A DNA stretch of 41,415 nucleotides, taken from positions 1 to 41,415 of the forward strand of contig JALRCN010000128.1 in assembly GCA_023257295.1 (NCBI GenBank), read 5' to 3'. A program made the position numbers and the translations under genes. Positions within the stretch are counted from its first letter, which is position 1. Each line of letters begins with the position of its first letter. This DNA comes from Nitrosomonas sp. GTDB lineage: Bacteria > Pseudomonadota > Gammaproteobacteria > Burkholderiales > Nitrosomonadaceae. Under the pieces are notes generated by a model that did not search any database, was not told where the DNA came from, and saw only the letters and a program-made list of their open reading frames with translations. Below, piece by piece: positions 28,309 through 38,968 of this stretch.

Positions 28309-29294
28309 ATGAATCAGACAGCGCTGTCGATTTTGCGTCTTTTGTCCGATGGCGCTTATCATTCACTACATTCACTAGCTGAACGATTGGAAATTTCCGA
28401 GAAGCTGGTATCAAGAATCTTGAATGAGCAGATTTCGTCTGATATCGGTCTGATTGCGTCGAAGGATTTTTGTTATTGTTGGAAAAGTCCGATTCAATGG
28501 CTTGATAAAAACGCCATACGGGCTAATAAAAGCGATAGACACAACATTGATATTCAGCTATTTGATTGCATCGGTTCTACCAATGATTATTTAATCGATT
28601 CGATAAAAAAAAACCTTTAAGCAATCATCCGATACAAGTTGTTGCGGCAGAAGTCCAGATGCATGGGCGTGGCCGCATGCAGAGGAAATGGCTTAGTGGT
28701 TTAGGGGCTGGGCTTACGTTCTCGTTAAAATGGACTTTCCCCTCTACAGTTGTTAACTTACCCTCTCTCAGTTTATTAATTTCTCTTGCGGTTATCCGAG
28801 CACTCAGACGGTGCGCTCCGGTTGACGTCAAAGTTAAGTGGCCAAACGATATTATTTGCGGCTCAAAAAAATTGGCTGGCATTTTAATCGAAGGGCGGCA
28901 CGATGCTGCGACGGGAGCCTTTGTTGCAATCATCGGGATTGGCATCAATTTTAAGCTTCCAAATGAAATTAAGCTCGGTATCGCTAAAGAAGCGACGGAT
29001 TTGTTTGAAATAACCGGTCAAATACTGGATCGTAATTTGATTCTCGGCGTATTGCTCGATGAATTGATTGATATATTGAAGAGATTTGAAGTATCTGGAT
29101 TTGCGCCATTCAAGATCGGATGGATTAATCATCATGCATATCAAGGAAAATCGGTTAAATTGCTGATGCCTAATAACGAGGAAGTCTTTGGAACGATAAC
29201 CGGAATAAACGATGACGGCTCCCTTTGTTTGCAAACTACAGCCGGAACTCGATCTTTTTCGGTTGGTGAAATCTCGTTGCGGGATTTGCAATAA
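28309..29294 (+). pseudogene. birA: BirA (HTH plus biotin-[acetyl-CoA-carboxylase] ligase) split into two frames; may be programmed frameshift, slippage, pseudogene or sequencing error
   Basis: ORF 28309-28620 carries the HTH and ...DIQLFDCIGSTNDYLIDSIKKNL*. The -1 frame continues from the A9 tract (28605-28613) as KPLSNHPIQVVAAEVQMHGRGRMQRKWLSGLGAGLTFSLKW... to 29294 with the rest of the ligase (KWPNDIICGSKKLAGILIEGR). Confidence 0.85.
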
Positions 29295-37138: not shown

Positions 37139-37166
37139 TTGATTTACGGTGGATGCAGACTATAAT
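37139..37166 (+). promoter_or_regulatory. Candidate strong sigma70 promoter upstream of the leader ORF and decarboxylase
   Basis: TTGATT (37139-37144), 16-nt spacer, TATAAT (37161-37166), preceded by a very AT-rich stretch. Confidence 0.65.
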
Positions 37167-37224
37167 GCGTGCAAAATTTACAATCGATATTTTAGATACT
37201 TTATTTAGCGAGAAGGAGGTCATC

Positions 37225-37290
37225 ATGAGAAGCATCAAGAACTTTTTTGCCCCGGCTGATTTAGTTAACGTACATATTCCTGAAACGTAG
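37225..37290 (+). CDS. Putative 21-aa leader peptide / small protein upstream of the decarboxylase
   Basis: Own translation: MRSIKNFFAPADLVNVHIPET*; AAGGAGGT (37213-37220) just upstream; stop 20 nt before the decarboxylase ATG. Below the track cutoff. An in-frame ATG at 37165 overlaps the -10 box and is less likely. Confidence 0.6.
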   Translation: MRSIKNFFAPADLVNVHIPET

Positions 37291-37310
37291 ATTTTTAGAG
37301 GAACGAACTC

Positions 37311-38486
37311 ATGTCCAAGCGCTCTGCCATACTTCAAAAAGCTGAACAAGCCGAAGTTTTGTTTGATACCCATCCCGAAATTAGTTTGAATTTTGAGCAT
37401 GTAAAAAATGCTCTGAAATCCGGTTACCACCGCCCTTTTTTATTGGTCGACAGCAATATCGTGCGACAAAAAGCACGACGATTTAAAGCTGCCATGCCGC
37501 GCGTGCGCCCCCATTATGCCGTTAAAGCCAATCCTGACGAACGCGTGCTGAGAACATTGATTGAGGAAGGTGTCGGTTTTGAGATTGCTTCTATCGCTGA
37601 ACTTGATTTGTTGATGAAATTAGGTGTTCCTGCTGCGGAGATTTTTTATAGTAATCCGATGAAATCGCGGGCATATCTTGAGTATGCCGCAGCCAAAGGC
37701 GTCGAATGGTATGTGCTCGATAGCGTGGAAGAGTTGCGTAAAATCGTGAGTGTAAAGCCCGATGCCAAAATGTATTTACGCATCGATACACCGAACATCG
37801 GCAGCGACTGGCCACTGGCTGGTAAATTTGGCACCCACTTGGGTGATATCAGTGCGATTATCCAAGCAGCAGTTGAACTTAAAGCTGATCTTGCCGGTGT
37901 GACATTTCATGTCGGTTCGCAATGCCGCAATCCGCAAAATTGGCGCGTAGGTATTGAGCGTGCAGTTAAAGTTTTTGCCGAAATGCGGGAGGTCGGCTTG
38001 AATCCGCGATTGCTAAACATCGGCGGCGGTTATCCTGTCCGGCATGTTAAGCCGATTCCTTCGATTGAAGTGATTGCAGATGTCATTAACGAAGCCATTG
38101 CCAATCTGCCGGAAAACATTCGAGTGATGGCGGAACCCGGTCGTTACTTGGTATCCGATTCCGCATATTTTGTGTGTCGTGTTGTGGGAACCGCAACGCG
38201 CAACGAGAAGCGTTGGATTTATTGGGATGCGGGAATGTTCGGCGGCGTGATCGAAATGACCGAGGGATTGCGCTATGAAATTCTAACCGATCGCCAAGGT
38301 CCAATGATGCCATGGTCCGTTGCCGGTCCGACTTGCGATTCGGTCGATATTCTGACGCATGATTTAATGTTGCCAAGTGATATGCAGGAAGGCGATTTTA
38401 TTTATATCCCGAACGCAGGAGCTTATACGACGGCTTATGCCAGCAATTTTAACGGCTTTCCTTTGCCGGATGTAAAAGTTATCTAA
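37311..38486 (+). CDS. Fold-III PLP-dependent ornithine/lysine-type decarboxylase (Orn/DAP/Arg decarboxylase family 2)
   Basis: 391 aa; PHYAVKANPDERVLRTLIEEGVGFEIAS, VTFHVGSQCRNPQNW, LNIGGGYPV, MAEPGRYLV, GPTCDSVDIL (ODC-like active-site Cys). Confidence 0.9.
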   Translation: MSKRSAILQKAEQAEVLFDTHPEISLNFEHVKNALKSGYHRPFLLVDSNIVRQKARRFKAAMPRVRPHYAVKANPDERVLRTLIEEGVGFEIASIAELDLLMKLGVPAAEIFYSNPMKSRAYLEYAAAKGVEWYVLDSVEELRKIVSVKPDAKMYLRIDTPNIGSDWPLAGKFGTHLGDISAIIQAAVELKADLAGVTFHVGSQCRNPQNWRVGIERAVKVFAEMREVGLNPRLLNIGGGYPVRHVKPIPSIEVIADVINEAIANLPENIRVMAEPGRYLVSDSAYFVCRVVGTATRNEKRWIYWDAGMFGGVIEMTEGLRYEILTDRQGPMMPWSVAGPTCDSVDILTHDLMLPSDMQEGDFIYIPNAGAYTTAYASNFNGFPLPDVKVI

Positions 38487-38627: not shown

Positions 38628-38671
38628 TTGATTTTTTGTTGCAGCACTCATATAATTAAGAATCATTCTCA
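38628..38671 (+). promoter_or_regulatory. Promoter with overlapping Fur box upstream of bfd
   Basis: TTGATT (38628-38633), 17-nt spacer, TATAAT (38651-38656), then TAAGAATCATTCTCA (38657-38671), a near-perfect 7-1-7 Fur-type inverted repeat at the start-site region. Confidence 0.75.
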
Positions 38672-38743
38672 TTATTACTAGCATTTAGTCATTAATGTTG
38701 TAAGAAGAATTTTTCCCATTTACCTATTGGCTGAGAATTTAAT

Positions 38744-38968
38744 ATGTATGTGTGTGTCTGCAGGGGTGTAACGGAAAGCGCATTGCGCGAAGCGGTTTAT
38801 CAAGGAGCTGACCGCATGCGGGATTTAAAAGCTTGCCTCGGTGTTACGGAGCAATGCGGTATTTGCGCTTGCCATGCCAAGCAGATTCTCGATCAAATGC
38901 TGGCTCAAAAATCCGAAGTGCAAGACTTTCATTTGCAAACCGCATGTATGTGCGAAACAGCGGCGTGA
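38744..38968 (+). CDS. bfd: Bacterioferritin-associated ferredoxin-like [2Fe-2S] protein
   Basis: 74 aa; MYVCVCRGVTESALREAVYQGADRMRDLKACLGVTEQCGICACHAKQIL (CxC...CxxC BFD pattern). Confidence 0.88.
   Translation: MYVCVCRGVTESALREAVYQGADRMRDLKACLGVTEQCGICACHAKQILDQMLAQKSEVQDFHLQTACMCETAA

Follow-up and report, generated by a model that had tools for sequence, protein, structure and literature searches.

Few leader peptides have been tied to polyamine synthesis in bacteria. In eukaryotes, very short polyamine-sensing upstream open reading frames (uORFs), such as MAGDIS of AdoMetDC and the uORF of antizyme inhibitor, pause the ribosome at their last residues and repress a polyamine gene. Among ornithine decarboxylases (ODCs), the enterobacterial enzyme encoded by speF is a fold-I protein, as distinct from the fold-III enzymes that concern us here. 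Ligand-sensing arrest at the end of a leader is known for TnaC and SpeFL, whose nascent chains block release factors (PMC8429421). SpeFL (orf34; PF10940, DUF2618), a 34-amino-acid (aa) peptide of the gammaproteobacteria (enterobacterial speF) with an HIRRT..HIM core, is encoded near the transcription start on the ODC transcript, within a leader of about 500 nt that has a Rho site and long-range RNA structure. In alphaproteobacteria, the odc1 motif (uORF-25-1) is a conserved 11-aa uORF on presumed ODC genes; its peptide is fixed, its start precedes that of the main ORF, likewise UUG, by two nucleotides and is itself UUG, and it is embedded in a hairpin with a pseudoknot that encompasses the ribosome-binding site (PMC8632094). 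ODC genes with a uORF are thus not wholly new, SpeFL and odc1 having preceded the one described below (PMC8632094). The alphaproteobacterial speF element (RF00518), finally, is a structured RNA (PMC1273637).

The locus that we analyzed belongs to a Nitrosomonas genome (2.0 Mb, 99% complete, 235 contigs) and lies in a window of 41,415 nucleotides, the whole stretch of DNA under study. A preliminary description had claimed a 21-codon leader ORF with a near-perfect Shine-Dalgarno (SD) sequence, placed behind a sigma70 promoter and ending 20 nt before a decarboxylase gene in another frame. The ORF is present as claimed, with the near-perfect SD abutting its ATG, and the gap of 20 nt and the difference in frame hold as well. 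For comparison, we assembled 85 distinct leaders from ODC-anchored upstream regions, using a P-x-T end as the acceptance rule. The features of the locus are as follows:

37139..37166, + strand: sigma70-type promoter TTGATT-N16-TATAAT, a sequence match whose spacing is kept in relatives
37213..37224, + strand: leader SD module AAGGAGGTCATC, directly 5' of the leader ATG
37225..37290, + strand: leader ORF of 21 codons, MRSIKNFFAPADLVNVHIPET plus TAG, supported by the 85 distinct homologous leaders and by pN/pS
37273..37290, + strand: core motif HIPET-TAG, a proposed termination-pause signal of the general form [HDQ][ILTV]P[VEL]T-TAG
37297..37303, + strand: decarboxylase SD, AGAGGAA, 6 nt past the leader stop
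37311..38486, + strand: fold-III PLP decarboxylase of the ornithine/lysine type, 391 aa, assigned from Pfam and solved relatives

Like SpeFL, the Nitrosomonas leader is a short ORF at the head of an ODC transcript, and by analogy we propose that the two share the logic of a termination arrest involving RF1. In other respects they differ: Nitrosomonas-type leaders are 13 to 24 aa long and have only P-x-T-stop in common, the window leader is followed by a 20-nt gap without structure, and the leaders occur in other lineages. Pfam returned no family for the 21-aa peptide, PF10940 (DUF2618) included, at E values up to 1, a search of limited power at 21 aa. The HIRRT..HIM core with its tandem arginine codons (PMC6386406) was found in 0/85 leaders, and a SpeFL-like long leader that sequesters the ODC start (PMC6386406) was absent, since the gap is 12 to 30 nt and holds no conserved pairing. 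With sequence, length, leader architecture and lineage all different, homology to SpeFL is not supported. The preliminary description had suggested a leader on a fold-III ODC as a parallel to SpeFL; what stands of this is a conserved, translated-looking ORF in cis, but one of unrelated sequence and different architecture.

The odc1 motif resembles the leader in being a conserved uORF on a presumed ODC gene (PMC8632094) but is set apart by its description, as the Nitrosomonas-type leader is an AUG ORF wholly upstream of the gene (by 12 to 30 nt), is 13 to 24 aa long and contains no conserved helix. The alphaproteobacterial speF element lies upstream of a related fold-III ODC, about 36% identical to ours (PMC1273637); we rejected kinship with it, as RF00518 had no match in the window (E up to 5) or in genomes G000 and G006, and no leader-like ORF was found in 28 loci that carry RF00518. 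TnaC is alike in its ligand-dependent arrest at the leader stop and in a proline near its end but it senses tryptophan, is 24 aa long with Trp12 conserved, and terminates at a Pro-stop that RF2 reads. The eukaryotic polyamine-sensing uORFs would be the nearest functional analogy to the negative feedback proposed below, and an analogy only, as they depend on scanning ribosomes and have other peptide sequences. The Nitrosomonas-type ODC leaders are a real new leader-peptide family, and we found no published description of a leader peptide for a betaproteobacterial ODC in a literature search that was thin on subscription journals.

The decarboxylase and the leader promoter

The decarboxylase matched PF02784 (Orn_Arg_deC_N; 1.5e-60) and PF00278 (Orn_DAP_Arg_deC, the C-terminal sheet; 1.2e-18). 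Its nearest solved chain is the lysine/ornithine decarboxylase 2plj, followed by human ODC, and it scores under the lysA cut-off, the true lysA being located on another contig. It is a fold-III ornithine/lysine decarboxylase, with a substrate assignment that is predicted. We found no match for speA over the curated cut-off and none for speE in this genome; the ODC gene is therefore probably the only route of the cell to putrescine, and a speE route to spermidine is probably lacking here. Related decarboxylase genes were also seen: this genome (G000) carries a third fold-III decarboxylase on contig C186 (11858-13042), which scores 241 bits against the lysA cut-off of 298 bits, and several genomes of the same genus (G007, G008, G016, G018, G020, G022, G023, and G032) have a second ODC-like gene of about 36% identity.

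The promoter named in the preliminary description was confirmed, and 69/85 related leaders match it at a spacing of exactly 16 nt, 63 of these 69 in the form CTTGATT-N16-TATAAT. Promoter-like matches across the region were at chance level (9 observed, 8.4 expected); despite this, the leader promoter is credible because it is conserved in related leaders.

Distribution of the leader and conservation of its end

The leader ORF is far from a chance occurrence. That relatives would keep the peptide, its start and its stop was a claim that could have failed, and it survived: all 35 same-genus loci examined, taken as the regions upstream of the ODC ortholog, contain the leader. At the level of the order, 37 of the 68 genomes with an ODC ortholog have it by the P-x-T rule, a tally in which about a dozen mostly distant orthologs lie outside the inspected set. 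Of the exceptions inspected, nine keep a ribosome-binding module without the motif and others keep neither. A search of 399 order genomes with the pattern ATG-N45-CAN-ATH-CCN-NNN-ACN-TAG matched 18, compared with 4 for a reversed control, and all 18 matches sit 18 to 23 nt 5' of an ODC start, which in L043 and L044 was taken as the ATG 18 nt past the leader stop. A wider scan of 84,980 species genomes across GTDB, limited to 21 codons with D or E at codon 12 and V or L at codon 20 (ending in -VT or -LT), gave 38 matches, 36 of which directly precede an ODC-like gene; the other two are a match in Nitrosomonas aestuarii, situated at a contig end, and a chance match in a Dadabacteria genome. The named taxa with the leader are Nitrosomonas, Nitrosospira, and Nitrosovibrio, joined by uncultured families of the Burkholderiales (betaproteobacteria). 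Neither the order-level nor the species-wide scan found the peptide away from ODC, and no P-x-T uORF was present 5' of 35 to 43% identical ODC-like genes elsewhere in Pseudomonadota (28 loci).

Most of the leaders (72/85) have 21 codons, and the others have 13, 16, 19, 20, 22, 23, or 24. Whatever the length, the motif stands at the stop, as in MTADQFNLHIPVT, MTRQPADLINLQIPVT, and MTSTRNSGSVVCSLDLPET. The shortest leaders, MTADQFNLHIPVT of L155 (13 aa) and MTRQPADLINLQIPVT of L147 (16 aa), show the motif in a naturally minimal form. The last five residues are HIPVT in 47 leaders, HIPET in 27, HTPVT and DLPET in 3 each, QIPVT in 2, and HVPVT, HIPLT, and DIPVT in 1 each (n = 85); Pro(-3) and Thr(-1) are present in 85/85, partly by construction, given the P-x-T acceptance rule. 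The conserved end can thus be written h-x-His-Ile-Pro-Val/Glu-Thr plus UAG, while the preceding sequence and the length drift. We know of no experimentally established arrest motif of the form P-x-T-stop.

Conservation continues past the last residue. Read as sums over related sequences, which give a direction and a rough size and do not count independent events, the leader stop is TAG in 84/85 compared with 18/76 of the ODC genes of the same loci (TAG lay outside the acceptance rule, yet some loci were fetched with TAG patterns), C follows the stop in 65/85 compared with 13/77 for ODC stops, the Thr codon is ACG in 73/85, ACG being 18% of Thr codons in ODC genes, and pairwise pN/pS is 0.64 for codons 2 to 11, 0.21 for codons 12 to 21, and 0.13 for codons 17 to 21. 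Among the same-genus loci, which were fetched via ODC alone, the leader stop is TAG in 35/35. The synonymous bias that the preliminary description had called for is therefore found where the peptide is conserved, at a pN/pS of 0.21, and codons 12 to 21 are under purifying selection on the peptide.

The initiation module and the gap to the decarboxylase

A second conserved part lies at the other end of the leader. AGGAGGTCATCATGACAAGC, which comprises the ribosome-binding site and the first codons, is kept at the DNA level in many families of the Burkholderiales and includes codons such as ACA and AGG, the latter making up 4% of Arg codons in ODC genes. Many ODC leaders of this order share AGGAGGTCATCATGA at the nucleotide level, including leaders that have lost the peptide motif. 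In L141, L142, L149, L152, L153, L174, and L193, AGGAGGTCATCATGACA(A/G)G is kept before ODC and the P-x-T-stop end is lost; in L174 (the same locus as L158), the leader reads on into an ATGA that its stop shares with the ODC start. Lineages with the module but without P-x-T-stop look like cases in which sensing was lost and coupling retained, and the module may act by itself, for example by plain translational coupling. The peptide end is in turn kept despite a weak or lost SD in L034, L035, and L052. Because module and peptide end each persist alone, one can be separated from the other, and the peptide end does not simply follow from DNA conservation. The Nitrosomonas lineages represented by L018, L020, L021, L034, L035, and L114 have a weak leader SD or none and keep an HIPVT or QIPVT end, so the strength of leader initiation differs between species.

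We also considered whether the SD module is specific to ODC leaders and rejected this, as L176, L200, and L201 proved to be ordinary strong ribosome-binding sites of other proteins, the same AGGAGGTCATCATGA start region belonging to a small membrane protein of other Burkholderiales in L176 and L200. Since the SD part also stands before unrelated genes, we take it to be, most plausibly, a very strong initiation site.

The distance from the leader stop to the ODC start is 12 to 30 nt, with a mode of 22 nt (85 leaders). The purine run of the ODC SD begins at most 10 nt past the leader stop in 80/84 loci, mostly at 5 to 10 nt. A frameshift fusion of leader and ODC was rejected, as these gaps place ODC in all relative frames. 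No conserved fold emerged: RNAalifold gave 0.00 kcal on the family-wide and distant sets, in a model that leaves pseudoknots aside, and two close subsets scored no better than shuffled columns. In folds of single sequences, the partner with which the ODC SD pairs changes between species. A candidate SD-sequestering hairpin after the leader stop was discarded as well, for the stretch up to the ODC SD is pyrimidine-rich and its energies are weaker than those of same-letter shuffles. An Rfam search of the window returned no family of note. With neither RNA structure nor relative frame conserved, a riboswitch, an attenuator and a frameshift fusion are disfavored.

A proposed pause at the leader stop and its alternatives

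The leader has two features of regulatory leader peptides, a short conserved ORF in cis directly 5' of a gene and a peptide under selection, and we are highly confident that the ORF encodes a cis-acting leader peptide of ODC. As to how it acts, we lean towards a pause in leader translation that blocks initiation at ODC. Given the conserved promoter and the very strong ribosome-binding site, almost all transcripts would be expected to have their leader translated. RF1 is the sole release factor for UAG, and its action at this codon would be slowed while the C-terminal motif lies close to the peptidyl-transferase center and the P site holds Thr-tRNA. As judged from toeprints, a ribosome that has a stop codon in the A site shields some 10 nt past it; the ODC SD is at the edge of this footprint, so a paused ribosome and an ODC-bound 30S subunit would be mutually exclusive, and the former would cover the ODC ribosome-binding site and block initiation. 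Once the pause was released, ODC would open, a long pause meaning repression and a short one expression. This sign of control is a guess, for which repression by a long pause is the simplest logic, because the strong SD keeps the leader occupied. The slowing would probably respond to the product or the substrate of the pathway, whose context suggests putrescine or ornithine as the signal (the choice of ligand is a guess), and the outcome would be negative feedback on the apparent sole source of putrescine.

A free N-terminus, a free length and conservation that extends into the stop codon and the next base would be the expected trace of a pause in nascent-peptide termination. We infer leader translation, pausing, RF1 dependence, the ligand and the sign of control from comparisons of sequence. 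In its most specific form, in which Pro-x-Thr-UAG is a minimal bacterial termination-arrest code that senses putrescine and represses ODC by steric blocking of the start site, the proposal is a tentative one.

Arrest might instead switch ODC on, in the manner of SpeFL, if a ribosome stalled by ornithine protected the mRNA from Rho or from decay. There is precedent in SpeFL, where ornithine is sensed through an arrest at termination on the transcript of an ODC operon (PMC8429421), and in the Salmonella leader, whose translation blocks Rho (PMC6386406); the window leader, too, ends in a stop read by RF1. We find this doubtful, however. In Salmonella, the leader ORF is at +32 and speF at +516 (PMC6386406), whereas the gap of about 20 nt here could hardly accommodate a Rho terminator. 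The ODC SD would also be hidden under a ribosome that occupies the leader stop, and no SD-sequestering structure is conserved.

The leader might also sense nothing, with a strongly translated ORF feeding a weakly initiated ODC through constitutive termination-reinitiation. Such coupling would fit the very strong leader SD and the short gap, as well as the lineages that have the SD module without the peptide motif, including the ATGA overlap of L174, but by itself it leaves unexplained the invariant P-x-T, the TAG and a protein-level selection that is limited to the last ten codons. We regard it as unlikely.

The preliminary description had named an antizyme-like regulator or other small protein as its alternative. 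A microprotein that acts in trans, as an ODC partner or otherwise, would agree with the protein-level conservation of the peptide and with its constant place next to ODC. It is nonetheless disfavored, and we hold it to be very improbable: lengths range from 13 to 24 aa with a free N-terminal half, what is kept is only the last residues, the stop codon with its following base, and the position before ODC, and the scans did not find the peptide elsewhere. A nucleotide-level element, be it a riboswitch or a site for an sRNA or a protein, in which the frame is open by accident, could account for AGGAGGTCATCATGACAAGC with its rare codons but is hardly credible given a C-terminal part that is free at synonymous sites (the Pro codon occurs in all four forms), an alifold energy of 0.00 and the lack of an Rfam match of note.

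Whichever signal it serves, a leader on a fold-III ODC occurs in nitrifiers and other betaproteobacteria, here in a genome in which a second putrescine route was not found. Because the motif is very short, sits at the stop codon and comes in 85 natural versions of 13 to 24 codons, the question of how a nascent chain stops a release factor becomes directly testable. Under the proposed pause-and-block mechanism with putrescine as its ligand, the leader would be a bacterial product-sensing arrest peptide that acts by occluding the start site, with no part played by RNA structure or Rho. The polyamine-sensing uORFs of eukaryotes would then have their counterpart in bacteria, where a peptide of as few as 13 residues would do the work.

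Two other genes of the window deserve mention. The biotin ligase gene is split into a winged-helix N-terminal ORF (28309-28620, + strand) and a catalytic and C-terminal part (28659-29294, + strand) in different frames; the break is, in the stretch inspected, near a run of A and is either a true frameshift or an assembly error. A gene for a small BFD-type [2Fe-2S] protein (Fer2_BFD; 38744-38968, + strand) has in its upstream region a Fur-box-like AT-rich stretch, GAATCATTCTCATTATTA, at 38660-38679.
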